In this document: piece by piece, positions 9,840 through 51,649 of the stretch
How positions within the stretch are numbered: the stretch's first letter is position 1
Layout of the letters: every line of letters starts with the position of its first letter
NCBI GenBank assembly: GCA_021018815.1
Contig: JAITYX010000007.1
Coordinates: forward strand, 4,155,001-4,219,000
Origin: Talinum fruticosum
Taxonomy: Eukaryota; Streptophyta; Magnoliopsida; Caryophyllales; Talinaceae
Length of the DNA: 64,000 nucleotides
Direction of reading: 5' to 3'
Program-made: the position numbers and the translations under genes
Notes under the pieces: model-generated
Database searches by the model: none
What the model saw: only the letters and a program-made list of their open reading frames with translations
What the model was told of the DNA's origin: nothing

Positions 9840-10074
9840 AGGGAGATAGTAGCTTTACTTTATAATCTTATAGCTTCTTTCAGCTCCTTAGCGGTGTTTA
9901 CAACTTTTTATACCTAACCTTACAACTATTTTAGAACACCTTACAACTTACAGCTTTACACTTCCTTAGGACTAAGAAATGAAGAGTAAAGGGAAGTCAA
10001 GAGGTGTAGGAGGTATAGGAGTAAATTAACATCTTACCCCTCCTTACTCTTCTTTACTCCATTTTGCTCTCAAA
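9840..10074. repeat. Left inverted arm of the outermost MITE-like element
   Basis: The reverse complement of 9,850-9,960 contains ATAGTTGTAAGGTTAGGTAT then AAAAAGTTGTAAA, matching ATAGTTGTAAAGTTAGTTAT then AAAAAGTTGTAAA at 44,405-44,437. Its outer part (rc AAGAAGCTATAAGATTATAA) matches AAGAAGCTATTAGGAGCTAT plus a following TTATAA near 44,526-44,556. The arms are imperfect but long, and they face each other across the 34-kb nested insertion. The outer CACTA sits between them with a 3-bp duplication. Interpreted as a several-hundred-bp MITE split by that insertion. Confidence 0.45.
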
Positions 10075-10455
10075 CACTACTATAAAAACGACTTCTAACA
10101 ACGGGCTTTTAACCATGGTTATAAAGAAAAACAGTTATAAAAAATAAGGCAGTGACATTTTTGTATGTAAGTTGTCTTTTATTACACCCATTATTACGAT
10201 TCTTTAATTGAATCGTCATCATAAATTGATATGTCCACTTTTAACTAGGGTTCATTAAAAGAAACGTAGTAATAGGTGTTGTCTATTACTAAGGTTCTTT
10301 CATTGAACCGTAATTAAAAAAATCTATTATATTTGACAAAAAATATAAGATACTTTTACTACGTTTCAATGAAAGAATCGTAATAATACGTTTCTATATT
10401 ACTATGATTCTTTTATTGAAGCGTAGTAAAAGTCCCTTCTTTTCTTATAACTCCT

Positions 10456-10730
10456 TTGAATGCATTATCTCATATCTTATTTTCTCTCTTTTCCTCCAAC
10501 CTTTCCAACCCTAAAAGGGACTCTCCAGACCTCTCTAACTCTTTCGTTTTCTCGGATATAGTTTTCACTCTCTCTTTCTCCAACCTCTTTAACCCTTTCG
10601 TTTTCTCATATTTGGTCTCTCTCCACCATGCCCGCTTCATCAACAGATCTCCCCACTCCTGTACTCTCACAAATCTTGAGAACCTCTGGGTACCCAATAA
10701 CCCCTTCCTCTCCAAGTTTCATCTTCAACA
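10456..10730 (+). pseudogene. Unrecognised open frame, left half (split by inner CACTA)
   Basis: An ATG-started frame runs from 10,456 into the left end of the inner CACTA. The last in-frame residues before the element read NNPFLSKFHLQH. On the other side of the element, from about 43,118, the continuing frame reads ASTFTNLIKFVVENPS and stays open to 43,298. Together these suggest an exon-like open frame lying inside the outer CACTA before the inner one inserted. A second in-frame ATG in a good plant context is at 10,627 in another frame (MPASSTDLPTPVL). I recognise no domain in either frame. It may be a captured gene piece. Confidence 0.35.
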
Positions 10731-11010
10731 CACTACAACAAATCTCTAATTGTGCCATAGAAGATTTTGTGGCATAAGATTCAAATTTTTGTGGCTATGC
10801 CATCTTGCCATAGGAATTTCCGAAATGAGCCTCGTGGCACAAGTGATTGTGTCAAGGTTGTTGCTATAGAAAAATGACTACTGTGGCTACATGACAAATG
10901 GTGGTCACGGAAATACTCATGGCAAGGTGCTTACTTTAGCCATGGAATACCCGTGGCAAGTTTAATTCTAGGCACAATAGCGACTCGTGACATGCTATAG
11001 GCATTAGAAC

Positions 11011-12078
11011 ACTCGATTTGCAACTATATAATTCGATAGAAACAGGAAAGAAGGGGCAATTTAAAGGGGGCAAGAGTTGCCGCAAATACAGACCTCAATA
11101 ACATTACCGAGAAGTGGTTATAGGACTTCCTCTGTTCCCATATTTTGTTGAACTGATTCTCGCCATGAACTCGCTAACTAAATAGGCTATCGAATACATC
11201 GGTTTATATCATAATATAGAATAAATCTTACAATATTTTTTCAAGGGTAAGTATGTTAAGCACTTCATTGCTTTAGATTATATCGGTTGTGAAATTTTGG
11301 TATGAATACTAAAATTTTTTCCCTTCATTTAGTCAAGTTCCAAGATTTAAGAATTGAAGAGGAATTCATCTCGCTTTTGAGAACAATATATTTTTTTTGT
11401 TTTGGTTTTGGGGGAGAAAGTCTATTACATATTTTTTTGGTAAAAGACCTACTCTTTTTTTTTTAAGGAGAAGGCTGATATTTTGTGGGTTGGAAGGTCA
11501 AGTCCTATTGTTTGGGAGAATGCTTATATTCAAAAGAGCTTTAGGGGGTTTTGTACATACGGAACTAATTAATTAAATAGAAGACTTTTTCACTAGTTAT
11601 TGCTTGCTACTTGTATTTAACTTATGTTGAGACAAAGTTTATATCATATCAATATTATACATTTCTATATATGTTATCTAGTTTTATTGAATATGCTATT
11701 TATGATGTTATAGTTTGTGAACTAAAATGCCCAAGGGAATAGTGCATTAAAGACAAATTCAATATCAGCGAGTTGTCGCAATAGTCAATGTAAGATCTTC
11801 TCAAAGCAAATCCTTAAAAGAAAGGCTAACAAATGACCAAAAAAATAGCACACACAATTATCAACTCAATTGCAACTTTTAATCACTCAAGTGTGCATTC
11901 AAGCAACTAGAAAGTGAGTTTATAAGTGAAGAGGCTAATAGAGTTGGGGAAATCTAAGCCCAAAAGATGACATTAGACCAAAGATAACTTGTCCAGATTT
12001 TGTTCATAATGCTCACCACAAGACAAGTGGTTTCATGAAGATCAAATTTAATAACAATCAAGCACCATCAAATACTAT
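11011..12078. other. Non-coding interior of the inner CACTA, 3' side
   Basis: AT-rich sequence between the sub-terminal repeats and the second-ORF gene. I see no coding signal and no further insertion boundaries. Confidence 0.4.
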
Positions 12079-12201
12079 AATAGATGTTAGAAATTTGTCC
12101 AGTTAGAAAGGACACCCACATCTTCATGCTTGTTTTACTACAATAGATGTTAGAAAATTGTCCGAGTTAGAAAGGGCACCCACATCTTCATGCTTGTTTT
12201 A
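12079..12201. repeat. Tandem duplication, 63-bp period
   Basis: Two near-identical copies begin AATAGATGTTAGAAA at 12,079 and 12,142, and both include CACCCACATCTTCATGCTTG. They differ by a few substitutions and one inserted base. Confidence 0.85.
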
Positions 12202-12240
12202 CACGCACACAGATATGAATGTATATGTATACATATATCC

Positions 12241-12290
12241 GCACATAACTCCACACGGATATATACGCACATAACTCCACACGAGATATA
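12241..12290. repeat. Short tandem duplication, 26-bp period
   Basis: GCACATAACTCCACACG occurs at 12,241 and again at 12,267 with similar AT-rich tails. Confidence 0.8.
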
Positions 12291-12559
12291 GAATAAGAAA
12301 ACTAAGTCGTTGAGATGGAGAGGAGGAAAAAAGAGAACCGAGAAAAGAGGGAAAAGAAGACAGAAAAATGAAAGAAAAAACATGAAGAAAGGACAACAAT
12401 GAGGAAGAAGCTTGAAGAGGAGGAAGAAGAAAACGAAGAACCGAGGAATAGGAGGAGAAATGACCAAAATCAAGCGACCAAATTTTTTTTCACAAAAGGC
12501 AATAAATAAGATCAAGTATACTCACCGCCATTGATGAACTTAATTTAGTTATTATCGTG

Positions 12560-15500
12560 CCCGAGTGGATATGAGAAACTCTTCAAGCATGTCCTTCATC
12601 CTTCCCTCCCACATCTTGTTATTAGCTTCAATCTTCACATCCACTTCATTCCTAATTGCCTTTGCTTCTTTGTTAGCTTGTTCAGCTTCCTTCTTTGCTT
12701 GTTTAGCTTCATGTTTTGCTTCTTCAACTTCTTTTACGGCTTCTTCGCATCCTTTTTAGCTTCTTCAACACTTTCGTTAGCTCTTCTCTTCAATTGCATA
12801 ACATCTTGTGCAAGATCCAAACGAGAAGGTTTGACTCCAAAAGACTATGTTATAGTCTTACCCCTTCCATATGCACACAAGTATCCATGCGTGTTTTTTC
12901 AAGTACATCTTGAAAAATTTGCTCATCGATCTTGTTGTTGAGACCTTCTTCTCTGTCATTTTTTAACTTCTCTAGTGCAGCCTAAATTGGATATCACAAC
13001 AAATTAAAAAATTATAAACTTGTATATTAAAGAAACCACAACGAGAAAAAGAATTGTAAACTTATATAATGTAATGCTAAACATATAAAATCTTGAAGTC
13101 TAGACAAAGAAATTTGTATTTACCTTTACATTCATGTTGTTTGCAAGGGTCTCTACATTCACAAGCTTATCGGATTTGCTCTCACGAGATTTAAGCATCG
13201 GATCAAGTCAAAAGCATTCCTTCCCATATTTCTCTTTCTAGAATCATTAAATGGAATTTTTAAAATAATAAGAATAACGATTACAAAAATAAGAAGTATT
13301 TTCAATTCTTGCAAGTAATAAAAGTATATACTTGCAAACTCATGTTTGAGACGTGTATAACTTTGTGTGCCATTATAATGATGCATCTTCGACAAGCTCT
13401 ACTTTGGGGACCTTTTTTGCTCTTTGCCTACCAAAAATCAAAGCGTTACAAACTTGGATGATTATAATGCTTGTAAACATGTTGCGATCTTAGTAGAATG
13501 TAATTCAAACTGAAGCTAAGATTTCTAATAAGCTTATATTATATATTACCCGAAATTATGGAGAATACCATAAGTTAACCCAATATTTCCAATCTGCATC
13601 CAACATCTCTTTAGGACAATTATTCTTACGATTTGATTTTGTTTTTAACTTTAGATTGTTGAAGTACTTCTTCTTCAACTTATGCCTACTTTTCCTAAAA
13701 AGAGATCTCTCATGTTTGAGGACATCTTTTTTCTCAACTCCGGACTATCAAAGGTGAAAACCCCTTAAGAATTTATAATTAATATATTAGCAATGAGGCA
13801 TGTATTAAGATCTATATCAATGACAAAAGAGAAATAAACATGTTTATTCTTTACTTGTACACAACTCCATAAATGTTCTAACGCCTCGGGCTTGATCTCT
13901 TCCCAGCAGACTTACTTGTACTTGGAATGACTGTTCGATTCCTAACTTGATTTCCCAAAAAGAAAGAGTGCGTTGATCCATTATCGCCAACGTAATTTCC
14001 ATCGTCATCAAACTTTACAATTAGCTTTTAACCGGGAGGCAGCTCGAGATAGTTTTCTACGAGTAAACAACGCCTCTTGTTTTCTTGTGTGTGCCTAAAT
14101 ATAAATAAGAAACATTGTTGATGACTTGATGTTATTTTTTAAGGGCAACGTAATATGAGGCAACTTAGTTAGCAGCTCGGTTGGCAATGGTAAGAAGTTA
14201 TAGAAATTGACAGTTGCCAAAATTCTATTAGATGAAAACATTAACCCTATGAAGACATCATGAAATGGCAACTTTAAAAGTTTCAACATTCTAATTTACC
14301 ACTAAAAGAAATTTAACAAACGCAACTATTCTTCGGAAGAGCTAAGAATACTACTAAAAATAGGAAGTAGGCCACACAAAGATTGAAGCTAGTACAGGAG
14401 AAAACATCAAGAAGATCATCTATTGCTTCAAAATTTCAATAGTAGTTTTAACAAAGTGGCAATGCATCTATATGATGAGGTTCAACCCAAAAAATGAAAT
14501 CATGCCCTCTAGTCAAATTTGTCGAGTGAGGAAATGAGAAAGATAGATTTTCTTCAATGCATGTTGTTCTACCTTATTTTTCCCCATGAATAGCATAAAA
14601 AATTTCAAAGTACTTTAACAAAAGTGGCGGATTGAAATTAACACATCTTATGTTTGCTTGATGATCTTATCATTTTCTGCACAACAAAGAAGAAAGCAAT
14701 ACAAATTGTTATAGGGGCAATCTAAAATTTTTTTACAACAATAGGACAAGAGGCTAATAAAAACAAATCAATGATGATCCTAGCAGGGGTGGACAATGCG
14801 ACTAGATAACAACTACAACTAGCATTGGGTTTGTAGAGGGATAACTCCCTATTAAATACTTAGGGATCCCAATTACAACAAGTAGATTGTCCAAAAATAA
14901 ATGCAGGTTGTGAGTGAACAAAATAGTAGCAACAATTCAAACAACTACCGCATACTAGATTGTCCCAAAGACGGGCCTTAACCTCTCGGACTCGGGTGGA
15001 GAAGATGTGTAAATTGAAAGGAAAGAAATGACATAAATAGATGAAGTATGCAAGATTTACAACACTTATATACCAGGTTTAGGGATGTAGGAACTTAACC
15101 CCGGATGTAGCAGTAGCATTTTATAGCATTCAAGAAAAAGTCAAGTATTTCATAGCATTCAAGAACAAGTCAAGTAGACGAATACAAATTTCCTATAAGA
15201 CAACTCTTTTTTTCTCTTTCCTTTCTTTCTTTTTTTTATTGTGGGGAGGGGGAGGGGGAAGAATTTAGCCTTATTTCCGTGTAAATGTTGCAGAGTTCTC
15301 CGGAATGCCTAGAATTATGTACAAATCTCCTTTGTAATAAATTTCTTGACAAGCAACTAGTAAAGATCAAACAAAAAATGAGCTCCAAAATGCAGTAAAC
15401 TTTTTCTCTCACACACAGTCTAGGAAGATTGGCACGAGAGAAAATGCGTAATAAAAAATAAGGTTATTTATAGAGTAACCGTACTATACAATTATGATAT

Positions 15501-16769
15501 AATAGTGGTTTTTAAGTGAATGAGATTATATATACTTGTATCACATAAAATTGTGATGTTAAAAGGCAATGATAAAAATAAAAATACATGCGAGTGATAG
15601 ATTGTATGAGGTTTGCACAATAAAGAAGCGGGAACATGAATAGGAGGAAGAAAGAAGGAATAAAAATGCAAAAAGGAAGTCAAGAACCATAGCTATAGAA
15701 ATTTGGCCTAACAACCTCTTCATTAACAAAGAAGTGAAATACCCGCAATGGTTCGTTGTCTTTCTTCATTGCTAGCCGTTTGATTCCTGGATGAGAAGTT
15801 TGGATCTTCCATAATATGCTTATCCAAACACGTCCTTACCATTGGCCTAGTTTCACTCACTATAAATTTTTTTCAAATCACGATGAGTTGCTTTTCCTAA
15901 GAAAACTCAATATTGAACACATAAAAACTAAATTTGCAAATGGTATATTTCGGATAATAACACCAAGGAAATACCCGGAATGCTATGTGGTCATTCTTCA
16001 TGATTACCTACTTGATTTTGTAATTTACATGTATCATAGCACATCAAATTCACAGTAATAGTTGTCACCTTCATTGCTAAGGACAATGTTTTGATCAAAT
16101 TGTTGTTGATCTGTTAATTGCTTGTCAAACAAGTGAAAAGACCAAATTACATCGTTAAAGTTTTCATAAAATAAGGAACAAAATAAATGGTAAACACAAC
16201 TTGTGAACATGTCCCTACCTTTGTCAACAACTTGGAATACTACAACAACCTTCTTCAAGGCTTCATCACCCACTACTACTCGCTGTTGTTTCGGCTCATG
16301 AGAAAAAAGTTAGCCATAAACATTGGTGCAATGGATTGTTTCTTTTGTAGATCATTTGTTTTAGTTGAAGACTTAATCGTAACATATGAAAATTGCATTA
16401 CAATCATAAAGTACTCCTATATATGAAATATTGATCTTATAATGTTCATTTACCATTTTCACAATTCTACTTCAATAGTTCTCGCTCTAATTGAAGTGAT
16501 TCATCAATGGATGAATCTAATTTTTCATCGACATCATTATAACTTGGAACAGATTCAACATCTTTATCTAGTTGAGATTTTTGCTTCTACTTTACTCGTT
16601 CTCCATTAGTATTATCCACTAAACTTGTTAGTGAACTAGCTAGGCCCTTAATTCCAAGGGACTACAGTTTTAAATTATTGTTTCTTATCCTTTCCATCAT
16701 CTCCTTTTTATATTCATTTGTATGGAATCTTGGCTTGTTAAAATGTGAACTTCCTCCGAGTTTTGACAT
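12560..16769 (-). pseudogene. CACTA second ORF, Ptta/En-Spm plant transposase-like
   Basis: A multi-piece minus-strand gene. The likely start is ATG at 16,769 (MSKLGGSSHFNKPRF), followed by an open segment to about 16,450 broken by stops. Near 13,560-13,700 it reads KSNRKNCPKEMLDADWKYWV, where the tryptophan pattern (W-x2-W-x3-W) resembles the plant transposase (Ptta/En/Spm) domain. At 13,330-13,420 it reads MHHYNGTQSYTRLKHEF, like the HxxGSKSFxxxR part of that domain. The C-terminal part (12,565-12,760) is a lysine- and alanine-rich coiled coil followed by NKMWEGRMKDMLEEF. In active CACTA elements the second protein binds the sub-terminal repeats beside the transposase. Stops and AT-rich introns or deletions make this copy non-functional. 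Exon limits are guesses. Confidence 0.5.
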
Positions 16770-17426
16770 TATTCAATGCCATTATCACTATACTATACAA
16801 ACATGACAATATATAAATGAATCACTATTATTCAAACAACTCTAATGCTAAAGTTAATATATGAGATGATGGATGACATGAAGTATAATAATAGATGCAC
16901 TATAATACTAAATAATATGAATCAAAAAGATCATTGGACAAAGCAAAATTATTATAATAGTTATAACTAATAAACTCAAAGTAAGTCTATACGATTGCAA
17001 ATTAACAACCATGAATATAAGTCATGAAAATAAAATACCAATTGTATAAGTACTACTATACATCTTCAAACACACAACGTGAAAACAAAGCCGATTATTA
17101 GACAAAGCAATATCATCTTCATCAATGATGTTTACATTATTAATGTCAAGATCAACATCATTATCATCATCGTTATGATCACTTTCTTCTTCACTTTGAT
17201 TCCCAGTAAACTCTCATGATTCATTGATATTAGTTGCACTTACAACTAAATAATTCATATCATCTCTCTTGTGAGTGTGAACCTCATCTCCATCTTCCTC
17301 AAATAAGATATCATTTGATAATGGCCTCGAATCACTTTGTCGGAGGGCATCTTCTTCACAAGTTTCTAATTCTAGGACATCATAGTGGTGTCGGGGTTGT
17401 GTGTTCACAACAACAAGACATTTTGG

Positions 17427-17434
17427 GTCATACC
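17427..17434. repeat. Target-site duplication of the hAT element, left
   Basis: GTCATACC, 8 bp, identical to 21,100-21,107. An 8-bp duplication is the hallmark of hAT transposition. Confidence 0.9.
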
Positions 17435-19264
17435 TAGGGGTGTACCTGAGCCGAGCCGGCTCGCGAGGGCGTATAAAAGCTTGCCAAGCCGAGATTGTGA
17501 CGAGCCCGAGCCGAGTCGAGCCGAGCTCGAGCTTGCAATGTTGGAGCTCGTAAGCTCGCCGAGCCTACACGAGCCCATTACAAACGAGCCGAACGAACGA
17601 ACGAGCCAACGAGCCCAAGCAAACGAGCCGAACGAGCCTACCAAACGAGCCTAAATAAGTTGGGCTCGTCGAGCTTACACAAGCTAATTACAAATGAACC
17701 TAAACAAATTGAAACAAATGAGCTAAAATTTGTGGAGATTAGTATGTGAAGAACTTTTGTTTTTATCATCGATCTAGCAATTAATTTAAATTTTTTAATT
17801 TAGCATAATTATTTTGATTTATATTTATTAAGTAAAGCATTTGGTTATACCTAATCTATTAAAACTTTTGTTTACCAATTACTAACATTTATATACATGA
17901 AAACCCAAAATCAAGATAGATAAAATGTTGATAATGAATATATGATTCACATTAATCTAGTTTACTTTTCGTATAAATAAAAAAATATAAAATAAATATA
18001 ATTGATGTAAATTTAAGAATTATGAATTTTAATAGTTAATAAATTTAGATTTTTTTCTATAAAATTTTCGATTGGTTATGCTTGATAATAGGAGCAATTG
18101 AACATAAACATGTAATACTTTATTTTCGAATGACTTAATTTGATTTGAAAATTAATGACAATTTATTTATGGATGATTTTAACGAAATCATGCTAGAATA
18201 AATTATTAGCCACTGTTATACTAGCTAAAGGACATCATAAATGTATATTTTCGAATATTTGTTGAACAATATGGTCTATTAAAAATAACTATATGTAAAA
18301 TATAGCGAAAGTGTTTTCAAGTGATCCATAAGGTTTTAGGTGAATTTTAGTCACTTTTACTTTTGATTTGGATACTTAGCACAAAACGAAACTATTGTTG
18401 TCACCACCCCTGGTTTCAATTACACCTTTTGTCTTTCATTGTTTGGTAATTTTAAGTTTGGACCCAAATGGTCTATATTACTCATATAGCATATAACGTA
18501 AAATTTTACCAATAAGGTCTAAATTTAGTGATCAATATTGAGGTCCTGGGTACATTAGGTCCCATGTTCGATTTTTTCTTCCTCCATTATATTGTATTCC
18601 CTTTATAACTTATCCGGATTAAAAAAATATAGCATAGAGATCTTAGAGAATTCTTAATAAGAATAAACTTGGTTTTCTTAGACGTAAAAACAAGTTGTAA
18701 TAAGCTAGAACAAGTTGGAATAAATTTTATAATTGTATAATTTGATAATTTTAATTTTAAAGTATAGTTGTCATGTTTCTATTTTGTTAATGTTAAATGA
18801 CTATCTATGTACATAAAAAAAAATGCTATGTAAGTAAGAATTTTTTTTATTTCATATTTGCTTTTGAATCAAAATTTAAATATTTTATTATCCTAATATA
18901 AATTATGTGAATAATAAATTATTAGCGATCGTTAGAAACAATTGATCATCGATATGACCAACATTGGTGAACAAATGATACATGTTTTGAATATTAAATT
19001 GGTCCATTTTGAATCATTTTATTTAGTCATAATACACATATTAGGTATATATATATATATCATCTAATAACGACATGTGTATTAACGTCATACATATGTC
19101 TGTTATTATATATATATATATATAATGTTATTATTTTTTGATATGCTTGCCTAAAAATCAGCATGTAAATCTTTTAAAATCAACAAATATATAATTTTAT
19201 TATCTTTTATATATATATTATCTAAAAATCAATATATATATCTTCTTAAAAAATATAGCAAGTA

Positions 19265-19425
19265 CTTTCCTTCCCCTTCTTCTCTTTCACATTGCCTCAC
19301 TCTCTCTCCCCCTTACTGCCGCTAGGACGTCTCCGGCGTCCTGCCGCCCGCCATCTCCGGCACTCCGCCGCCGCCCACCGCCAAACTCCTCTTGCCTCTC
19401 TTGTTTATTTTTGGTGAGTTGCTCT
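19265..19425 (+). other. GC-rich exon-like block inside the hAT element
   Basis: A CT-rich leader (CACTCTCTCTCCCCCTTACT) is followed by GC-rich CCGCCGCC-type sequence and then TTTGGTGAGTTGCTC, which looks like a splice donor. The surroundings are very AT-rich. This is the layout of a plant 5' UTR and first exon followed by an intron. It is either the promoter and leader of the element's own lost gene or a captured host gene start. No long open frame is present. Confidence 0.35.
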
Positions 19426-20100
19426 TGTATAATTAGGATTTTTTTCTAAATTTTAAAATAATTATTGTAAAATAATTTCAATCTTTTCTTGCTGCACTTT
19501 AGCAACTCTTAACTCTTTTTATGATTACATTTTCAGATCTTGATTAGTAAAGATAGAAGTATCACTTTTTGATTAATTCTCTTTCTTTGGAGGTAAAAAC
19601 CCTAAAAGCTCATACTTTTTATTATGTTTCTTGTTCTTGGTTAACTTAATGAACTTTTAAAGGGTGAAAATTATTATTAGGACTTATTTATGAAAGATTT
19701 TCGTGGGTTTTATGATTGAAAAAGGTTGATTTATGCATAAGTTATAAATTCTAGGAGAACCAGAAAATTAACCCGAAATTCTCTAACTTTAAAATTTCGC
19801 CATAATTTATATAATCGTCTAAAAATTTCAAAAACTTATGATAGATAGATTTATACTTTCTACATATTTTAGTTTTTGAATTGATTAATTTGGACTTAAA
19901 TCGAGAGAGTTATTAATTTTCTCCCGTGATTGCGCAATTTACGACTGAAGCTGACCCATGTGATAAACTTGAGTTTTTATGGTATTTATAATTTTTGGCT
20001 GCTGTTTATCATAAAGTAAAAGTTGTAGGCAACACTTATACCTTTCTATATTGTGCTCATTAATCGAAATTCAGTATCAGAATTAAAAGTTATGCCATTT

Positions 20101-20371
20101 GGAAGTTCAAGTTAAATTCTGTCCAAAAAATAAAAAGTGAAAAATATGTGGCTTAGTGTTAAATTATTCTTTATAATCAGGAAATAATTATTAAAAATTA
20201 TTTGGGTTCTTCAAAGGGTGAAAATTATTATTAGGACTTATTTGGAAGTTCAAGTTAAATTCTGTCCAAAAATAAAAAGTGAAAAATATGTGGCTTAGTG
20301 TTAAATTATTCTTTATAATCAGGAAATAATTATTAAAAATTATTTGGGTTCTTCAAAGGGTGAAAATTATT
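20101..20371. repeat. Tandem duplication inside the hAT, 142-bp period
   Basis: GGAAGTTCAAGTTAAATTCT occurs at 20,101 and 20,243, and the following roughly 120 bp are nearly identical, up to TTTGGGTTCTTCAAAGGGTG. A third partial relative (GGGTGAAAATTATTATTAGG) is at about 19,660. Confidence 0.9.
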
Positions 20372-21099
20372 TATGAAAGATCTTCAAACGGTGGAAACTT
20401 TGATATGTGGAGGTGATTGGTTCCGTCATCTACATGGTGTCACAAAAAGAAGAGGAAGGTAGTTTTTTGTCAATTTAAAGTATAAATTAAAATAAAATTG
20501 TATTAATGATTTAGTTATAACTTTTATTTGTCTCCCCTTCTCGAGTGTCAAAAGAAGACGATCAACCTAAAGAGTTCATATTGCCAATTTCTAATGAAGG
20601 ATCGACGTGCCCACTTTGATGACATTTTGCTATATTGGAAATGTGGAATAAAGAGCCTTTTTTAGTGAATGATAGATGTTATTGTTACAAAGATTTTAAG
20701 TTAAAATTCAGGTTGTTTAGTAATTTGTATTTCATTATCAAAGCGTCAAATGTTTTATTTATGTTTTATACTATTTTTTTAAGTGGTATATTGTGATTGT
20801 TAAGAAAAAGAGTCTCAATTAAATTTAAATTTATGTTTTTATAATAAGTATATATAAAGGGTGACTTTGAACCTAAAAATAGGAGTTTAATAGAAACTTT
20901 TGACGAGCCATGACGAGCCGAGCTTGGGCTCGAGCTTTGGCGAGCCGAACTTGGGCTCGAGCTTTTGGCGAGCCGAGCTCGAGCTTAATTGTGCCGATCT
21001 CGGCGAGCCACGAGCCGAGCTCGAGCTACAAATGATACTCACGAGCCGAGCTTCGAGCCCGGCGGAGTTCGGGCTCGGCTCGGCTCGAATACACCCCTA

Positions 21100-21107
21100 G
21101 TCATACC
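21100..21107. repeat. Target-site duplication of the hAT element, right
   Basis: GTCATACC, identical to the left copy at 17,427-17,434. Confidence 0.9.
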
Positions 21108-24100: not shown

Positions 24101-24592
24101 ATTCACCTTGATAAATCCAATGAGAGTACCCAGCTAATATATCATTTATAAAAAGGTCTTCATTTATCTCTTCCCTGATCTTATGATGACTATCGTTACA
24201 CTGCTTACAAGGACAAGGAACCTTACATTCTTCCATATCAACACTTGTAGGCATGTTAAAGAAAGCAAAATCAAGAAACTCCCTAACTCCATCTATTTAT
24301 ATATCGGTTCGTCTATCGACACAAGTCATCCATTCTACTCTCTTCTTAATTTGTTCTAAATTGTCCACCATATTTTAACGAGAACGAAACAAAATCTACA
24401 ACGTAAAACTTAAGTATCAAAAAATTATAAGGATTTCCATAACAAAAACTTAATACAATACAACAATGTTTAATCACCAAGCAATAAAAAATGAAAAGTG
24501 GTCATTGACCTGCATAATTTTTGAAGGGGACATCATCAAATGCATTGTTTTCAAATTGTTTGTGAGAGGAGAGCGACAAATTTTAAATTTTA

Positions 24593-32900: not shown

Positions 32901-34831
32901 CCTTGTCTGTCATCTCCAAAAGTGACTTTGCCTCCTTTAAAATCTTATAACTCGGAAAAGAGTCTTGAATCTCCGACATGTAGCGTGAACATCACCTGTC
33001 TAAGTACCAATGACCATCCTTTTTAAGTTACCTGCAAGTCGAAACACACTAACATTTCTCACTTCCTCTAACAAACCCAGTAACCCCCTTTACTATGGTC
33101 CTTTTCTAAGGAAGAAGACTCTTGGGAACTCGAGATTTGAATGACTTCGGGTTTGGTCCGATTCTAAGTCTTCTTTCTAAAAAACTAAGTGTGTGTCTCT
33201 TTCTTTTGAAAATCTCTTCTTTTGTAAACGAGTGGAGAAGGTTTTCTCCTATAAAGCTGGTCCGGGCTCAATCCTCCTTTCATTCTTATGAATAGCACCA
33301 TACTCGACCTTTCTAAACTTCAAAGTTCTAGAATCCTTCTTAAAAAGATTCGAGTAGGAATTAGATTCCTTCTCTTTGTTAAAACCAAGTCCTTCTTTCC
33401 TGAAGGAGACACACCGAGAACCTAAAAGCATGTCAAGGTTTTTCGACCATAAGTATATTTCAAAACAAGCTCTTGAGACTCATTGAGCTTTCTTTTCAAA
33501 TGCTAATTTTCTCTTCGAGTGACTCGGACTCGGTCTCATTATCTTGAGTATTAGTCTTGAGTTCTTTGAGAGTTAGTCTCAATTTTTCCAATTCATTTTT
33601 CAAACAATTTTTCTCGAAGTAAGAGACTCAAGTTGTTCTTTGACCGAGAAGAATCGAATTGGACTTTTCTTCCAAAGTGTAAATATATTTGGCCAAATCA
33701 ACTTTGGAGAACTTGAGAAAGTATTCAATTACCTCCCGAGGACTTGTCTCCTCGATTGTCCGAGTCTGTCGAATCCGACTCGGATTCACCTTCCGAGTCC
33801 GTTAGTGCCATTAGACACTTTGAGTCATTAGAATCATCATCTTCTTCAAATGAGTCATCATTGCTCCATGTGACCATCACGACCTTCTTCTTCTCGTTCT
33901 TCTTTCTCTTTGAACAGTCCTTGACTATGTGATCTTTGCTCGCCACATTTAAAACAACTAGAGTTCTTAGTTAAAGATAACTTTGAAGGGGAAGAATATT
34001 TACCTTTTCTGTCCTTCTTATCCTTCTTGTAGAACTCTTTCTTTGGCCTCTTTTTCCACTTCTTATGCTTCATCATTCTTTTGAAGCCATGGGCAATGAG
34101 TGCCATTGGATCCTCTTCTAAGTCTCTACTTTCCGAGGCCTTCGACGCAATGTTCCTTTTGGTGCCGACCTCGGCATCCTCTTCTTCCGGATGAATTTCA
34201 TGGGTAAGCGGCTTCCCAATCGGCTTGTCCGGCTTTAGTTGAGAGAGGTTCCGAGCTTCCTCGATAGCTGTCACATTGGGACCCCATCTCCTCTTGGGTA
34301 GGCTTCTTAGAATTTTTCCGCACATTTCTTCATGAGAAATTTTTCTACCTAAAGATTTGAGATTGTAATCTCAATGAAGTGAATAAACATCCGAGTGATG
34401 TTTTCTTCGACTCCATCTTGAACAACTCATATTTGTGAAGATATCGGCTTATCTACGCCTGTTTAACTTGGCTTGTACCTTCGTATGTGTTGACAAGAGT
34501 GTCCCACACGTCTTTGGCCGTGTCGTAGGTCGACACTCTATTGTACTCTTCTAAACCGATAGCACACATCGAATGTTTATTGCTTTGAAATTCTTTATGA
34601 ACTTCTCGACTCCTCATTGGTGTACTTGAATTTTTCTTTAGACACGGACCTTGTTCCTTCCATCTTCATTGAGATGTAGTTGCCTTCTTAGATGATGTTC
34701 CGGACATCTTTATCGTTGTCCAACAGAAAACACTCCATCGGTTTCTTCCAGCGCATGAAGTTTGATCCTTTAAACTTTGGTGGTCTAGTGGAAGACCTTT
34801 CTTCATCGAACTCTCCAATGTTTTGAGCCAT
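30000..34831 (-). pseudogene. gag-pol of the SIRE-like copia element
   Basis: The gag start is ATG at 34,831, then RPPKFKGSNFMRWKK (gag domain), a CCHC knuckle split by a frameshift (CFKCGE, then DHIVKDC) near 33,920-33,990, and an acidic Ser/Asp tail. Protease near 33,000-33,040 reads WYLDR, stop, CSRYM, so the DSG active site is lost. Gag-pre-integrase zinc motif and integrase follow (32,250-32,980): HMDLCGE and VIVDDFSRF hold the first two acidic residues, while the third motif near 32,135 reads NEVVQRKN, with glutamine in place of the catalytic glutamate. Reverse transcriptase follows (31,390-30,300): IIGTKWIFKNKLDEDG, KARLLAQGYNQEEGIDY and an intact IYVDDIIF near 30,825. RNase H ends near 30,000-30,250. 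Frameshifts occur throughout. Confidence 0.85.
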
Positions 34832-34877
34832 CCGATCTCTAGACCTTTGGATTGTTAGATCCTTCCGGAAAGGTTAG

Positions 34878-34889
34878 GCTTTGATACCA
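34878..34889 (-). other. Primer-binding site of the SIRE-like element
   Basis: The minus strand reads TGGTATCAAAGC, one base from TGGTATCAGAGC, the complement of the initiator-methionine tRNA 3' end. It lies one base inside the 5' LTR edge. Confidence 0.85.
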
Positions 34890-34890
34890 A

Positions 34891-36331
34891 TTGAAAGTTT
34901 GCTCTTGGAGAGTCTAAGTCACCCTAGAGGGGGTGAATGGGATGATGAGGAAATTTGAAGAAACTTAGAAACTTTTCGCTAAGAAAAAGATAAACAAGTG
35001 AGTCCAAGTCTAGATTGGACTTAGAAAGGAAAACTCGGGAATACGTGGAAACCCTCGTGGGGCAAAAACCACGGACAATGGTAATCCAAGCACCAAGTCA
35101 AATCCACTATTTTGAATCCTCAAAATACAAATGACTCGACTCTACCGAATTGCTCCCTTAGACAATTTCTTACAAAGTTATCCTAGACTCGAAATTCTCT
35201 TATCCGATCTAATACTTCCTCACCGAGATAACCTTATAATTAAGAATAACTAAGCTGAGTTAACCCTTACAACTCGGTTAAGGGACCTTACTTAGAAAGT
35301 AAGAGAAGTATGTAACTCGTTTACAAGACTTTACAACTCATAAAATATTAATTACAATCTAGGAGTTTTACTTAAGTAATGTGTTTCACCAATAATTCCA
35401 ACAAATCTTCAAGTCTTGTGAAATGGCTTCTATTTATAGATGACTAAGCAGAGTGACCATTGAGTCTTGGTTCGAACGGAAATCTTTACGGACCGTTGTA
35501 ATCGCTTTTCGAGTCACTCGAAAAGATCCATTGGAATGTGAACGTTGTGCAACGGCTTTTGGCTCCTAAAGGTACTCCAAACATCGGATGTCCGAAAAGT
35601 AAGGTGGAAACCACCGTTGAGCCTAGCGTTGCGGTTTTCCAATTTTGAAAACAAACAACCCCGATACGGTGTCCGAGCCTTGTTCGAAGTAGATAAAGCT
35701 TGTCTGCGGGTGATTGACAGCTAGAAGCTAGGTTACTTTTGTATTTCAAAAATGAGATAACCTCGTTTGAATAACCTACAAAAGTAAACCACTTTGGTTC
35801 TCAAAGTATAAAATACTTTAGTCTAAAATTAGGCACAAATAATAATTTAATTAAGACAATTAAATGCATAATTATCTTAGGCCTAGAAGAGTGGAATTTT
35901 CCGAGTCTAATATTCAATATACTCAAATTCCATCGAGTAAATCCTAAGAATAATCAAGTTAAAAAGAATATAATCATCGAGTATAACGACTTGATCCGGA
36001 CAAATAATTCTCAAACAAACAAACCGACTTAGAAGAAGGAATTAACACTGTAATTCACTTCGTTGAAATAAGCGGTCAGAACTCGGAATAAAAGAATTAG
36101 AGAAATTATTTGAACATGCACCGGTTCCGAGTGATGTCTAAGTGAGTCGAAACATCAATGTAGAAGATATACAAGAATGTGTTTTCGAGTCGATCGAAAT
36201 GAATGAAAACTTATATAAGAGTTTTTATAATACTCGGAATGACTTGAAATCAAAACTTATGAGGGATGAGGTTTATACTTGAGTCTTCATGTAGTACTCG
36301 GAATGACTTAGAGTTAGAATCGAGTCTTCGG
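34891..36331 (-). repeat. 5' LTR of the SIRE-like element
   Basis: Direct repeat of 25,827-27,314. A TATA box (TATAAATA on the minus strand) lies at 35,431-35,438. Its promoter would drive the genomic transcript toward gag. The terminal CA has mutated to CG. Confidence 0.88.
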
Positions 36332-36641
36332 ATGTCACATATATTTAAAATAATACTAGTTGCATATGATCTGTTGTAATAATTCCCAAGCTTTCGATGG
36401 CAATTCAAATATTATTGATAACTTGTTTAATCTATCTCGCAACTTTATCAAATCCATTCACATGCTCTTGATAACAATTACTCGAACATTCTCTTCTAAA
36501 ACATGCATATATAAGTGATATTGATGTATGATGTGAGTTGTGTGTCTTTTTTATTTCACACTCGGACTATGTACTTTCTTGTTGTTGTATTTTGGGGCAT
36601 AATTTGTCTATTGTCTTTTCTTCATTTTTTACAACATTTAG

Positions 36642-37410
36642 CTAGAAGATGGCCGTTTCTTTCGCATGGACCTCAAAACATTAGTTCCCTTGGAGCAAAG
36701 AATTATTCTTGTGAGTGATAGAAGTTGCTCATTTTTCTTGTTTTGATGTGGGCATCACTTGGTTGTTTATGGCTTATTGTTATGTTTCGTGGTAGAGTAT
36801 CCTAGATTGTTGCACTTTAGGTATGAAAAGGTAGAAAAGTTAACTAGCAAGCTTGTTATATAGAGGGGGTTGCTAATTTTTCCTCCTATGTACCGAGTGT
36901 TATGACTCGGGGTATTTTGGTGGTTTTATTGGACCCTTCCGGAGAGTGACTTTGTCTAATAACCTATAATTGTTTCGAAAATATCTCTTTCTAGTGCTAA
37001 AGAAAAACTTAATTTCATGTACAATTCACATAATTATTTAACATTATTTCTCGGCTTTCTATCAAATGCAAGGAGGCTGGCTTTTGAGTGCACCGATATG
37101 TGAATACTTAGATCGGGCCGAACTAAATCACACACTAAAGTGTATCATCCGAGTGTAATTTGGTATGAGAACCATATTTTCCTTCTCTTATAGATCTTTT
37201 ACAAAAAAATTAGAAGTCTGTCTTCCTATCTATTCATTCTTCATGTAATTTTGTCTTTGTTTTGCCTATTAGCCAAAGGAGTTTTGGAAGGAAGAACTAA
37301 AAGAGTTCAAGTAACAAAAATGGATATGATCTCTGTAAGAATGGAGGTGGTGCACCTATGCTTTTAGATGCTCTTAAGGATTTTGAAAGGTATCATGAAT
37401 TATGTGCATC
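36642..37410 (+). pseudogene. TON1: TON1-like gene fragment, copy 1
   Basis: Three exon-like pieces match my recollection of TONNEAU1, a plant protein related to human FOP that organises cortical microtubules and the preprophase band. Piece A (36,642-36,710) ends at GTGAGT and reads RMDLKTLVPLEQRIIL, like the TON1 N-terminus. Piece B (about 37,073-37,162) reads LLSAPICEYLDRAELNHTLK, then loses frame by one deleted base, and ends at GTATGAG. Piece C (37,273-37,410) follows a CTATTAG acceptor and reads KEFWKEELKEF, then after an inserted base NKNGYDLCKNGGGAPMLLDA and LKDFERY. The exon between A and B is missing or unrecognisable. It lies within the inner CACTA, so it is probably captured. Confidence 0.6.
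36919..37329 (+). repeat. Direct duplication unit 1 (contains TON1-like exons)
   Basis: The 410-bp segment from GGTGGTTTTATTGGACCC to AAAATGGATAT is repeated at 40,148-40,554 in the same orientation, including the introns. The copies differ by scattered substitutions and small indels. Confidence 0.85.
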
Positions 37411-40147
37411 TTTTTATTTTTTGAAGTAGAATATAATAAATATTTTATATGATAAAGTGAACTAAGTAAAGTGTCCACCTCTATTTTCTTTCTATGGTGT
37501 AGTAGGCGGTTGATGGTTTTATAGGGTCTAATGGAATTAACTTCTCTACAACTTAGGAGTAAGGGTTGTAAATCCGAGCCCCTCACATCTGTCTAAGTGG
37601 GAGTGCGAGACTATCTAGTATGATTCGAAACTTCAACATGATAAATATTTGATCTCTCGGGAATTGTCTTTTCTTAGTTTCTTTCTAGAGAAAGCTATAT
37701 TTCCTATAAATTTAGTGTTCCTTGTAATTAATGACTTCGAGCTATTTTTTCTGTTTTTGTTTTTAGGGCGGGGGCATTGTATTGAAATTGATAAGACAAG
37801 TCTTCCTTGCACAATTTCATAATTTGCTTTACCCTATTGAAGTTGACTTGGATGCGATGTTCGGTTCTTTTTCTTCCCCTTTTGTGGGAAGGAAGTGGGG
37901 GTTGATGCTACTTTTTGTGGTGCTTTCGTGGCTCTTAATTGAGTGCCTTATAGCAACATAAAATATATGTTGTCGAAAAGCTTTTTAATATCTTCTGTTT
38001 GTGTGGAGTTGTTTGGTTATCATGCATTTGAGTGCGAGTGTAGAATAAAGCCCCGATTTAGTGGTAAAGGTAAAATGCCTTAATATGAAGGTGTACCACT
38101 TTCTAGCATAGAATCCAAAACCCCTCTATGTCTACTCATTCAATACCCACTTTCTAGCATAGAATTGGCTGCTGACTGCAGCAGAAATGGGGCAGAATCA
38201 GCACAGTGGGAATCAAACACTTCCCTGAAAATTAGAATGTGGGGAGCATAACAATACCTACTACTCGACCCCAAAAGTTGGCTTATCAATCATCAAATGC
38301 ACACACACGTACACACAAGAGATGTAATATTGAGCCTTACATACCTATTAATAACCAAATAGTTTTGTAGATATTTACCACGATTCATCGATAGCCATGC
38401 CTATTCTTTTTGTCCACGTCAACGAAGCCCCTAGCTCTCCCAAGAGACGGAGTACTTCAAATTAAGGAAAATTTCCCTTTGCTTCATAAGTCATAAGTAA
38501 AACCTAAGCCCGGGGATGACTTTTGCTCTATCCGGAAATTGATAGGGTTGCAAAGCATTTGCTACTTTATATATATTCTGCCCAAAAGTGGCATGGGAAT
38601 ATAGAAATTTGTAAAAAGGGTACGTTATATATATTATTTGAGATTTCCAAAGCATATTCGTTGAAGCATTTAAAAGTTTATTAAAGCTCCAATAAATTGC
38701 TCTTTTCCATGTTTGTTGAATAAAAAGCACATGCGCATTTGTTTGCTTGGATAAAAATTATCTTATCCTATACAATAATTATCCCTAAGAATTTGTAAAA
38801 GTACCAACTATTGATATTCATGTCAGCCACGAATGTTTCTGGTTTTATAATTGGCAACTTGACTCACTTCAAAGGTGTATCCATATAGAACCTTTTTGGG
38901 CATTGGAAATACGGAAAAGTAGAGAAACCCTTAATGAGATGGAGAAACAGAAAGTATTAGCCAATCTTACTTTGATGTTTTACACCCCCTCCCCCTCATT
39001 AAGGTCTTTCATTAATGAATGATAAAAAGCTCAACATGAGAAATATGACAAATGATAACACTACGTGCTTATAGTTCTTAGATTAAGAAAATTGAGAATG
39101 ACTTCTTAGAAATCTTCTCATTCTTCCGCACATGTCATGAGTTCTTGATTGGAATATATGATAGGGCTATGCCATGTTATTCTTGTGCACAATGAATAAG
39201 GACCCAATTTATTTTATGAGTACATTGTTCTCTCAAGGAAGTGACATTTATTGAATCCTAAAAGCATGATAATGTAAATATTATTCCGTTGCTAATTATT
39301 TTCAGTTTAGGAGGCTACCTGTCTATATCTCCCTAGCTTTGTCATGGATAAAATGGCATGCTTCATTACTTTGTAGAGTTCTTCGAGGGACTTCCTCCAA
39401 GGAGGGGGATAACAAGGATCGAAAACTTCGAGTGAGACAATGAAAACCGGAGGAAAAAAGCATACATGAATATAATTAGTAAGGATGCTTTATGGTTTCC
39501 CATAGTAGTTTTAGAAAAATAACATTATGGTTTCCCATGGTAGTTCTAGAAAAATAATACATTCGATTCTCCTCGAAGATTCTTGCTAATAAATCGAAAA
39601 ATGCCTAAGGTCAAGTGCGCTCAATGCATGTTGTGTAATCAACTTTTGGTTTGGCTAAGAGCCAAACTATTATGGGGACAATTACCCTCTTCTTCACAAG
39701 GAACATGGTTAAAGGAATATGCTGGCAAAACTTGATCTGATAGTACATCTATAAGGACATAATGGCAAGATCGATTGGGAATTCTATCTTTTCGGATGCA
39801 AGAAGAACAATGTGAGCTCGGTTCCTCATATCATGAACAAGGATTATGTAATGAGCCTTAGCATGAATATTAGCTGTAAGTTGCTAAAGTGGTTGACGTA
39901 CTGTGTCACTTCTCTATTTTCTTTGTGGAAATTTAGTTGGCCTCTTCAGGCTTTACCAACTCTCTAGATGCCAAAAGGAGAAAGTTACCTAAAAAAGATA
40001 TCCTAAGGAGATGTGCTTGTTACAGTAAATGATTATGTAAGAATACATACTAGAGATGCACTAAATAGAATTCAGCCTTGATTTGTTGTGAAGATATCCC
40101 ACCCTTTTTCCCTTCCCCTAGGATATCAAAAATAAACTAACTGTGTA
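37411..40147. other. Inner CACTA interior between the two TON1-like copies
   Basis: AT-rich with intron-like pyrimidine tracts. I see no recognisable coding domain. GGTTTCCCATAGTAGTTTTA at 39,495 and GGTTTCCCATGGTAGTTCTA at 39,531 form a small tandem repeat. The minus-strand frame at 38,491-38,730 is not convincing. Confidence 0.35.
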
Positions 40148-40554
40148 GGTGGTTTTATTGGACCCTCCTAGAGAGTGACTTTGTCTAATAACCTATAATT
40201 GTTTATGAAAATATCTTTTCTGGTGCTAAAGAAAAACTGAATTTCATGTACAATTCCCTAATTATTTAACATTATTTCCTGACTTTTTATAAAATGCAGG
40301 GAGGTTGGCTTTTGACTACACCGATGTGTGAATACTTAGACTGGGCTCAACTAAATCACACACTTAAAGTGTATCACCCAAAGTGTAATTTGGTATGAGA
40401 ATCATATTTTTCCTTCTCTTATAGATCTTCTACAAAAAGTTAGAAGTTGTCTTCTTATCTATTCATTCTTCATGTAGTTTTGTCTGTCGTGCCTTTTAGC
40501 CAAAGGAGTTTTGGAAGGAAGAACTAAAAGAGTTCAGTAGAAAAAATGGATATA
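40148..40554 (+). pseudogene. TON1: TON1-like gene fragment, copy 2 (duplication unit 2)
   Basis: Same segment as 36,919-37,329, less decayed. Piece B (40,300-40,392) is 31 uninterrupted codons between a TGCAG acceptor and a GTATGAG donor and contains CEYLDWAQLNHTLKVY, which I recognise as the conserved TON1 motif in the dimerisation/LisH-like region. Piece C begins at 40,500 after TTTTAG and reads PKEFWKEELKEFSRKNGY, in the right order and phase. The following TON1 C-terminal sequence seen in copy 1 is absent, and the N-terminal piece was not found. So this is a fragment, though the splice sites look intact. Confidence 0.65.
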
Positions 40555-40907
40555 ATTCATGCTTGAGTAGCTCTGGAGAACTTACAGTTGGATAAATGTA
40601 TATTAGCAATAACAAAATAACTAATATCTTTTGGATTTTACCTTCAGTATTTTTATTTTGAGTTGTTCTATGCTGCCTAGAATAATTTGCTTAAACCTAC
40701 ACATACTTAACTATCTCTGTTCTTTTTGTTTCTTTTTCTTGTGGGAATTTCAGATGTTCATCAATCCCCAAAATTGTGAATGATTTTTTGATAGCTCATT
40801 TTTCATTTTATTTTATGTTTAGAGTTTTTTGTCTTATTGTTATTGAAATTAAGTTTCAACACAAGATTGATTAATCAGCAAACTTCTTACAACCAAATCT
40901 CAGTATA

Positions 40908-41293
40908 AAATGAATGGACACAAATTAAAATTACACATAAGCATTCCAAAATCTGAGTTTACAATTGAAATTTAATAACTAGAAAGAGAGAATTACCGCA
41001 ACCAAGCCATTGTAGTTGCACAACAACCAAATCCCCTTTTTCAAAATCGGTCTCTGTACCGACCCTTCTCAGTATTCACCACAATATCATAGATTTGCAA
41101 TGAACGGCCACAAATTAAATATAGACATGAGTAATCCAAAATCTCAGTATGAAAATGAAATTTAATCACTAGAAGAGAAAATTACCACAATCAGGTGATG
41201 ACTACAATAAAGCTGTTGTAGTTGGAGAACAACCAAATCCCTTTCTTCAAAAGTTGTTTCTGTACTCGACCCTCCTCAGTATTCGCATAATTA
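40908..41293. repeat. Imperfect tandem duplication, about 190-bp period
   Basis: Two copies share CACAAATTAAA, AAATTTAATNACTAGAA, ACAACCAAATCCC and CTCAGTATTC in the same order (about 40,908-41,085 and 41,098-41,293). They are moderately diverged. Confidence 0.7.
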
Positions 41294-41419
41294 ACCATGA
41301 GTAGATCACTTATGTTGATCACTTATGCTCTCAGATTGTGTGGATGTTGTGAATGAAGAAAACCTAACAATTTATATACTCTCAAACGATTTTTTGTGTA
41401 GTTCAAAACATATGCCTAT

Positions 41420-42180
41420 CTAGCCGTCTCTCAAATTGACCCCCTATTTGGATTTACGAAAATAAGATGGATTTTAAGCAAAGAAAATAATGAGAAAAAA
41501 ATGTAGAAGAAATTTTTTCCCCTCTGTTTGGATAGGGAAAAAATTATGAGGAAAAAATTCACCATCCATCTCCAAATTAAAAACCACAAATCGGAAATTG
41601 AATCCTTCTTCCCCAATTGAACCCTCCTCTTCCACAAACAAAATATACACATACCTATGGCCTTAGTCGACTGAACTCCTTCACGAGAGATAGAAGAACG
41701 AAAAATGATGGAAGAAGTCACCCAATTTCAAATTCCTACTAAAATTCTGACCCTATTCTGAATCCGAACGCAGCCAATGCTTCAATTTAACTTCTCAAGT
41801 AATCCTAGAAGTAATTCAACCGCCAATAAGCACAAATTCGATCTCATTTACGAGTTTTTGGGATCCATATTCGAAAACCCGACACGCTGAAGAACCTAGA
41901 TCTGAGTACCTCGATGTACTCTTCGTATATCTACTTCGACTACAGACTACATGAATGGAGAGAGAGCGAGAGAGCTTCGAGGAAGAGCTTTGAGAGAGAT
42001 AGATGGAGTGAGGTCTTGAGCTAAGACCTAGAACTGAGAGAGGAGCGAGGAGACTCGAGATAGAGATGAGCTTCCTTCTAATTTGTTTTACTTTTGATCT
42101 TTCATGTGAGAGTTTTCAGACATTTTGTTTTTCTTCCTTTTTTCGAAAGAATTTATTTTTCCAATTTTTGTTGGTTTCAA
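41420..42180. other. Unassigned, exon-like purine-rich stretch
   Basis: On the minus strand, 41,750-42,070 is CT-rich and GC-richer than its surroundings and is followed by an open frame (41,431-41,721). This could be the 5' UTR and first exon of a captured gene. I recognise no domain. Confidence 0.3.
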
Positions 42181-43116
42181 TCCCAAGTTGAATATTTTCT
42201 TTAATTAAAATCTCAAGTTAAATATTATTTTAGATATATTTGTGTCCAAAAATATATTATTCTAAATTAGGTGAAATATGTTAAAAATTATTCAAACTAG
42301 TATGATAAGCTAATTTTTTCTTTCTTTCTTTTAAATTTTTTAAAATATAAAATCATATTCGGAAATAGCATTTAGAGTAACATTTACCATCTTTATAAGT
42401 CAAAATAAGTCAAATATTGTTATTATTTTGGCTAACATTTTTAGTATCATTTAGAGTTTTAAGCAACATTCTTAAAAACTAATAATAGTATCTTTGTCCT
42501 TTCAAAAGTACAGTTTCATATTTTTATGGTTAAAAAATTACTCTTATTTTTTATAAAATTATTGATCCTTCTATGTCAATTTACTTCACTGAGTTAGCCC
42601 AACAACTAAATTATTGAACACATTTTCTCCAAATGCTTATCTTATCAACTATATGCTAACAACTAAATTACAATTGTTAGTTGCCACTTAAACAACTAAA
42701 TCAAACACCATCTAAAATTTCCATCCTTTTTTATGTTTGATACATGTAATTATTTTCCACAAGAATTTCTAATCATAGCATATTATTGCCACAAGAATTA
42801 TAAACTTGTGCCAAAAGAAATTTTTTGTCATATTAATTTATGCTTGTGGCATATTATTGTCATGGTAGTATCTACTCTTGTCACAAGTAATGTTTTACCA
42901 CAGTAATTTATACATGTGCATATTATTGGCACGGGTACTATTTTTTTGTGGCACAAGTACTTTTTGCCGTGAAAATTTTTTATCATGACATATTTATTAT
43001 TTCATATATTTACACTTGTACTCGACGAAAAATTAATAGTGGCAAGACAAAAAATTGCCACGATTTTATGTTTCTTACGGCATAATTCGTGGTACAAGTG
43101 ATGATTTCTTGTAGTG

Positions 43117-43298
43117 ACGCCTCAACATTCACCAACCTCATCAAGTTTGTGGTCGAGAATCCGTCGCGGTCCCCGCCATCAATGCTAAGTTTCTCCTTCA
43201 GCGACGTCGGTGCCATAGCACCGACCTCTTCTCCCCGTCACAATCGAGAATCGCTACGTCCCCACCAGCAACGGCCGTGGTTGGAAAACAAGAGATAG
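43117..43298 (+). pseudogene. Unrecognised open frame, right half
   Basis: Continuation of the frame begun at 10,456, on the far side of the inner CACTA, reading ASTFTNLIKFVVENPS and staying open to 43,298. It is GC-rich compared with the surroundings. No domain was recognised. Confidence 0.35.
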
Positions 43299-44159
43299 AT
43301 TTCTCCTAGCTGTCATCGTATGCTTGACCGCCCTTGTCAAGCTCGACCTAGATATGAGCTTCACATTTTCTCTCACTTTTTGCCTCTCTCTCTCTACTCC
43401 CTTACGGTAGTGTGCGTCTCTCCCTCTCTCTCTCTCGCTTTTGGGTATTTTGGAATTCAATCAACCATGGGAGAGTGAGTAGAAAGGATCAAAATACTAC
43501 ATCTACCAATCTGGGCATCAAAGGAATATTTGTTTTGTGTGGTGGTGAAGACATTTGTTTTCTCCAATTTTTTGTATTAATAATTCATCATTCTAGGGCT
43601 CTAACTTCCTTTGAGAAAGGAAAGTTGGAACGTTGAAGTTTAATTAGATGAATTAGGTTGCCTTTACTTGTTATTTCGATGTAAAACTAAATTATTAGAT
43701 TCTGATGTAAAATTGTATTCCACATAATAATTTCGGACACTTTTTCTTTATCTTTTTCTTTCAATTCCATTGCCTTTCCTTGTTATTTCGATGTAATTTT
43801 GATGATTTTTGGATCGAAATTGATGCTTCGCAATCGTCGTTTGTTCCGATTGTATAATTGTACAAGGGGTATGAAAAATAAAAAAATATATCAAAAAATT
43901 AAGACCTATTACTACGGTTTTTAACTAAGAACCATAGTAATAAGTGAACCTCCTATCGCAATTGTTTATCCGTAACCGAGGTAATAGGTTCTTTATTACT
44001 ACGGTTTTTACATAAACCGTAGTAATAGGTGGTCTTTTACTACGATTTTGAACCATAGTAAAAGATGCCCATTTACAATTACGACCACATACACGAAGCC
44101 AAATAACCATAGTAAAAGGTCTTTCGAAATCGTAATTAAAAGTGGTTCCTATAGTAGTG

Positions 44160-44585
44160 AAACTAACTCGAATCTTCTTGGAATTTTTTTCTTTTGCGGT
44201 TGTTATTTCTTGATTCTATTTGGAATAAGGCATAACTAACTAAATTTCATATATAAACTAATCTACCATATTTCCATAAGTGAATAACGTTGATTGCTCT
44301 ACAAAAGCATCCCCTATTCCATTTACTCGTGAGGAGTTATAAACCTTTAAGGAGATGTAAGCAATCGTAAAAAGATACAAGGAAAACTGTAAGGAGTTGT
44401 AAGATAGTTGTAAAGTTAGTTATAAAAAGTTGTAAAGAGTTGCAAGTAGTTGAAAGGAGTTGCAAGCAACCGTATGAAATTATTAGGAGTCTGTAAGCAA
44501 CTATAAGAACATGTAAGGAGTTCTAAGAAGCTATTAGGAGCTATAATATTATAATTTAAAGCTAAATGGAACAAGGTCCTAAATA
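44160..44585. repeat. Right inverted arm of the outermost MITE-like element
   Basis: The segment 44,380-44,560 is made of repeated GTAAGGAGTTGTAAG-type words and is the imperfect inverse of 9,850-9,960. It ends near AAAGCTAAATGGAACAAGG. It carries the right AAA duplication of the outer CACTA at 44,160-44,162. Confidence 0.45.
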
Positions 44586-51620: not shown

Positions 51621-51649
51621 TATTTACTAGAATATAAATGTTATTAGGA

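Follow-up and report, generated by a model that had tools for sequence, protein, structure and literature searches.

Excerpts from published accounts of CACTA (En/Spm) transposons, which carry a tnp2 transposase, provide the closest comparison for the locus described here; the portion on Chenopodium elements was compared for terminal inverted repeats (TIRs) and for the domain order Transpos_assoc, Transposase_21 and DUF4218 (PMC8978399), and the portion on the 20.5-kb soybean element Tgmt* for TIRs, subterminal repeats and a 3-bp duplication (PMC2613891). In the RESites (Related to Empty Sites) method, as set out in the relevant part of its description, joined flanks serve as the query and junction-crossing matches are counted (PMC2213677). 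We analysed a 64,000-nucleotide stretch of Talinum fruticosum DNA (the window; contig C7, 4,155,001-4,219,000, from a 620-Mb assembly), in which 34 kb very probably form a nest of three levels: an outer CACTA element, an inner CACTA element, and then a hAT-type and a copia-type element side by side. Comparisons were confined to this one genome, and the tests were therefore built on paralogues.

The inner element resembles the CACTA elements in those excerpts in its TIRs, subterminal repeats, 3-bp duplication (11 of 16 copies) and domain order, and differs from them by a frame-broken transposase and by its interruption by the hAT and copia elements; DUF4216 was not seen among its scanned pieces, nor any transposase in the outer element. 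With non-autonomous members of the hAT superfamily the second kind of element shares an 8-bp duplication and short TIRs, and it is here 3.7 kb long. The third is like Ty1/copia in having two long terminal repeats (LTRs), a primer-binding site (PBS), a polypurine tract (PPT) and a gag_pre-integrs match above the Pfam cut-off, with gag and rve below theirs, and is unlike it in lacking a target duplication and in an extra region of open reading frames (ORFs) between pol and the 3' LTR. The joined-flank test applied here is the same as that in the cited part of the RESites account; the difference is that, for the inner CACTA and the hAT, we took as empty sites copies of the transposon into which each had inserted.

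Matching ends are expected by chance in sequence of this kind. Five CACTA/TAGTG pairs with TIRs matching at 10 or more of 13 positions and at most one mismatch in the target-site duplication (TSD) were observed in the region against 2.55 per shuffle, and one with a perfect TSD against 0.29 per shuffle (300 dinucleotide shuffles); a scan for 8-bp TSDs with at most three TIR mismatches yielded 25 pairs, a number within the 12-32 obtained from 10 mono-nucleotide shuffles. On pattern alone, neither the CACTA pairs nor the 8-bp TSD pairs go beyond chance, and related copies are therefore needed to support a nest, whose significance rests on paralogues and not on end patterns. Such copies supplied empty sites for the inner CACTA (three, two of them full-length and one partial), for the hAT (three) and for the copia element (two), bearing out the nested insertion proposed in a preliminary description of this DNA, which had also placed both pairs of CACTA boundaries (10,075/44,159 and 10,731/43,116) correctly to the base.

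The empty sites for the inner CACTA come from the family of the outer one, whose ends have TIRs matching at 11 of 13 positions and AAA on either side. A search with 10,076-10,730 (best 40 of 1,111 first-look candidates scored) provided 30 loci that were cut out, the window included. When the outer halves were joined (10,075-10,730 plus 43,117-44,159, or 1,699 bp), they aligned over positions 1-1699 with locus L010 (80.5% over 1,712 columns) and with L011 (75.3% over 1,743 columns); with L013 the alignment extends over 1-1373 (72.8% over 1,418 columns). These three loci carry no inner sequence (10,731-43,116) at the junction, and the L010 alignment crosses the outer breakpoint at the exact base; the L012 alignment is broken into four pieces, and about 30 bp separate the two beside the junction. 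The window reads TTCAACA, then the inner element, then ACGCCTCAAC, where L010 has TTCAACACCTCAAC and L011 TTCAATGCCTCAAA; in both L012 and L013 the sequence is TTCAACC and diverges more strongly beyond it. The bases matching 10,728-10,730 are ACA in L010, ATG in L011 and ACC in both L012 and L013. As the joined halves align through the junctions of L010, L011 and L013, the outer CACTA is best read as one 1.7-kb element split by insertion. Its left end was located in 27 of 29 non-self loci, and a properly oriented right end, judged by reading orientation within 1.5-kb flanks, stood in the same locus for eight (L010, L011, L012, L014, L015, L016, L022 and L038); the L016 match is 23 bp only, and the right end of L017 is wrongly oriented. 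The middle of L010 holds a coding-like open frame of 144 amino acids, possibly a captured gene fragment; a Pfam scan of this stretch gave no match.

The inner element has TIRs matching at 12 of 13 positions between target copies ACA and ACG, and Pfam matches above cut-off identify Transpos_assoc at 24,084-24,296, four frame-shifted pieces of Transposase_21 within 22,721-23,722 and DUF4218 at 21,908-22,105, which is the CACTA order. Its family was sampled at the left end (10,731-11,500; best 40 of 60 candidates scored) and at the right end (42,500-43,116; best 40 of 336), and pairs were matched up by reading the two tables side by side. Of 38 other left ends, 17 have a right-end match at a distance of 1.9-23 kb that shares contig and strand with them; with the scoring so bounded, the 21 left ends without a partner say little. 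Left ends were fetched for 16 of the 17 pairs (the C85 pair was excluded), ends were set by best fit to a short end motif, and a perfect 3-bp duplication was present in 11. In the copies examined, the same kinds of end pair with each other, and no CACTA end was found with a different partner, the result that the preliminary description had named as refuting it.

The hAT-type element shows the perfect 8-bp duplication claimed for it, GTCATACC, with TIRs matching at 10 of 11 positions. Its flanks were joined (17,100-17,434 plus 21,108-21,440), and seven candidates gave seven rows: two self halves, two short one-sided matches and three that aligned through at 88-89%. Each of these three empty sites has one octamer, GTCATACC on contig C46 and GTCATGCC and GTCATACT on C27, and the C46 site sits between paired inner CACTA ends on that contig. 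None of eight ORF pieces (63-92 amino acids) in or overlapping the element matches Pfam, and neither does a ninth that straddles its left end; by its ends and duplication it is classed as hAT-type and filed as non-autonomous. Inside it, at 20,097-20,371, lies a 142-bp tandem duplication at 99% identity. A CACTA-like pair at 16,898/21,295 that encloses the hAT was dismissed as chance, since 2.55 such pairs are expected.

The two-LTR copia element reported earlier is likewise present, its LTRs being 89.1% identical (Kimura two-parameter distance 0.119 over 1,433 sites). On the minus strand the PPT AAAAGGGGAGAT, the LTR start TGAAGACTC and the PBS TTGGTATCAAAGCC are in place, and the PBS resembles initiator tRNA-Met. 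Pfam scores were 39.2 bits for gag_pre-integrs, above cut-off, and 29.5 for rve and 22.2 for Retrotran_gag_2, both below theirs. The joined-flank search returned four rows from four candidates, two of them self halves and two aligned through, at C13:3366410-3367138 (81%) and C18:2664225-2664952 (80%). In both empty sites ATGTT and ATGTC are 19 bp apart, and at most one G of this spacer is left in the window, so about 18-19 bp of target are missing at the insertion. The sequence fetched for the C46 copy and for two C27 copies of the inner CACTA ends short of the copia site. One copy on C27 spans only 9.0 kb from the hAT site to its right-end match, too short to hold the window's copia element. 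Judged by its LTRs and coding pieces, the element appears to be a copia-type remnant and not an intact insertion. ORFs at 27,636-28,919 on the minus strand, between pol and the 3' LTR, match SR-25, BUD22 and Transposase_32 weakly, all below cut-off, and we take them to resemble the extra ORF of sireviruses. A third LTR of this family lies at 52,809-54,194 and shares 77-79% identity with the pair inside the nest.

Several observations weigh against a nest built by ordinary insertions at every step. The inner target copies ACA and ACG differ by one base; most likely, the insertion would have duplicated AC[A/G] and one base changed afterwards. Five of the 16 checked inner pairs are without a perfect duplication: C9 has one mismatch, the left terminus of C43 was not located, and C78, C60 and C29 are mismatched, their right ends fitting the motif at only 12 of 16 bases and thus perhaps misplaced. 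Two of the 11 perfect pairs, at C7:5,509,767 and C45:3,135,297, have identical 8 flanking bases on both sides and may be one duplicated event, and the assembly may contain duplicated or allelic segments. The right-end copies on C125 and C6 have no recognisable left end within the 20 kb fetched. Three outer paralogues were read at their two ends, and only L011 has a perfect 3-bp duplication (GAT/GAT); the flanks do not match in L010 (TTG/ATA) or L012 (GAT/GGA). A joined-flank search for an empty site of the outer CACTA, such as the allele lacking 10,075-44,159 for which the preliminary description had advised looking, gave no row crossing the junction among the best 40 of 1,788 candidates, a scored list filled by copies of a miniature inverted-repeat transposable element (MITE); we infer the outer insertion into flanking DNA from the ends, the AAA/AAA flanks and the family. 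The copia element has no 5-bp target duplication, since ATGTT on one side and ATGTC on the other both belong to the uninterrupted sequence of the C13 and C18 empty sites; these two sites may lie outside inner CACTA copies.

These points bear on how the region came about. Both CACTA families are abundant (1,111 and 336 first-look single-end candidates) and their end patterns are by themselves expected from chance, so one could suppose a composite produced by recombination between dispersed CACTA copies, with matching ends that were never those of one insertion. Such an origin is made very improbable by paralogues whose sequence is continuous across the breakpoint in the outer element (to the base in L010) and by matching target copies in 11 of the 16 other inner pairs. 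The copia element is a different matter, as an irregular arrival would be compatible with the nest: with no target duplication, with some 18-19 bp of both empty sites gone in the window and with a 5' LTR that starts with CG in place of TG, it may have been exchanged into place, or cut back, through ectopic recombination or end-joining and not have arrived by normal integration. LTRs, PBS and PPT are nevertheless all in place, and age and small deletions could likewise erase a 5-bp duplication; we regard this route as a plausible minority explanation. The fuller proposition, that the copia element came or was remodelled non-canonically inside the CACTA-in-CACTA nest with loss of that target and no duplication, is tentative and somewhat less probable still.

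The preliminary description had proposed at least four levels with, as the outermost, a MITE into which the outer CACTA had inserted and whose two inverted arms were the matching ends. The arms are indeed similar in inverse orientation, at 78% over one stretch of 79 bp and 75% over another of 63 bp. However, the right arm alone is bounded by both MITE terminal repeats, CCCTATTCCATTTA and TAAATGGAACAAGG, with the core TAAGATAGTTGTAAAGTTAGTTATAAAAAGTTGTAA inside, and the left arm holds a diverged copy of this core again, in inverse orientation. The core is present once in each of five aligned family copies (from the seven loci L002-L008; L003 and L007 were excluded for unclean ends, and L003 has part of the core twice). 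Among the best 40 of 1,788 candidates (72 rows in 38 loci, after exclusion of 4 of 76 rows that were the window itself), both arms were matched in 29 of 38 loci, the two matches always overlapping on opposite strands, and the right arm only in the other nine. In addition, about 100 and 150 bp of other sequence stand between the arms and the CACTA ends. Because the right arm is whole, the left arm repeats the core and the matches overlap, the arms are interpreted as two independent MITE copies and not as two ends of one element; the MITE level falls, depth is reduced to three, and a fourth, outermost level is extremely improbable.

The three-level nest would thus have been assembled as follows. 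A 1.7-kb non-autonomous CACTA would have inserted with duplication of AAA, as inferred above, and a transposase-bearing CACTA of another family then entered the middle of it, duplicating AC[A/G]. The inner element in turn received the 3.7-kb hAT with an 8-bp duplication and the 10.5-kb copia retrotransposon without one, these last three steps being those that empty sites show. All of the elements have the look of ordinary transposition products, cut-and-paste or copy-and-paste, that have since decayed. What had been described as a dated series holds as to the order outer, inner, and then hAT and copia; nesting sets no order between the last two, and the LTR date is doubtful. At substitution rates of 1.3e-8 and 7e-9 per site per year the LTR divergence would correspond to 4.6 and 8.5 million years, respectively, but with no target duplication it may not date the insertion, and it does not date the element if recombination remodelled it.

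Table 1. Predicted features of the nest and its borders, in window coordinates.
Feature	Position	Strand	Remarks
Degraded copy of abundant short MITE (left arm)	9850..9975, ends approximate	-	Outside nest
Left AAA flanking outer CACTA	10072..10074		
Outer non-autonomous CACTA, left part	10075..10730	+	Full-length paralogues: L010, L011
Left target copy (ACA) of inner CACTA	10728..10730		
Inner CACTA plus all inserts	10731..43116	- (transposase strand)	32.4 kb gross; ~18.2 kb minus hAT and copia
Left hAT target duplication GTCATACC	17427..17434		
hAT-type element, TIR TAGGGGTGTAC/TAGGGGTGTAT	17435..21099		3.7 kb
Right hAT target duplication GTCATACC	21100..21107		
Frame-broken CACTA transposase	21908..24296	-	Pfam domain matches
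Copia-type LTR retrotransposon	25828..36330	-	LTRs, PBS, PPT, empty sites
Copia LTRs	~25,828-27,313 and 34,892-36,330		
Copia gag_pre-integrs/rve piece	32,251-32,619		
Copia gag piece	33,861-34,370		
Segment absent from family copies	38468..40462		~2.0 kb; C125, C27
Outer CACTA, right part	43117..44159	+	
Right target copy (ACG) of inner CACTA	43117..43119		
Right AAA flanking outer CACTA	44160..44162		
Complete copy, same MITE family (right arm)	44310..44580	+	Both terminal repeats

Within the inner CACTA, both family copies that reach so far (C125 and C27) skip the extra segment of about 2.0 kb, passing from 38,466/38,467 to 40,462/40,463 or to 37,233/37,234, where the sequence is nearly identical. 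A direct repeat of 89% identity, formed by 36,919-37,327 and 40,148-40,553, suggests a later rearrangement. Outside the nest, frame-broken pieces on the minus strand at 48,946-52,452 resemble an endogenous pararetrovirus, with a movement protein match (PF01107, 2.5e-08) at 52,204-52,452 and a weak match below cut-off to a cauliflower mosaic virus-type peptidase (PF02160, 0.00032) at 51,113-51,433; the remaining pieces scanned in this region gave no clear match. Weak copia-type gag pieces (PF14223 and PF13961, both below cut-off) lie at 6,310-6,640, also on the minus strand. The window yields no Rfam match at the gathering threshold.

Nesting is called common for plant LTR elements in the pertinent part of one account (PMC6911290), and the nest is for this reason ordinary, if well documented by copies elsewhere in the genome that lack the inner elements. 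The lesson is that, in AT-rich DNA, short duplications and matching ends are weak evidence by themselves. In total, the locus is a clean worked example of how empty sites within one genome can back three of the insertion steps of a 34-kb repeat nest.

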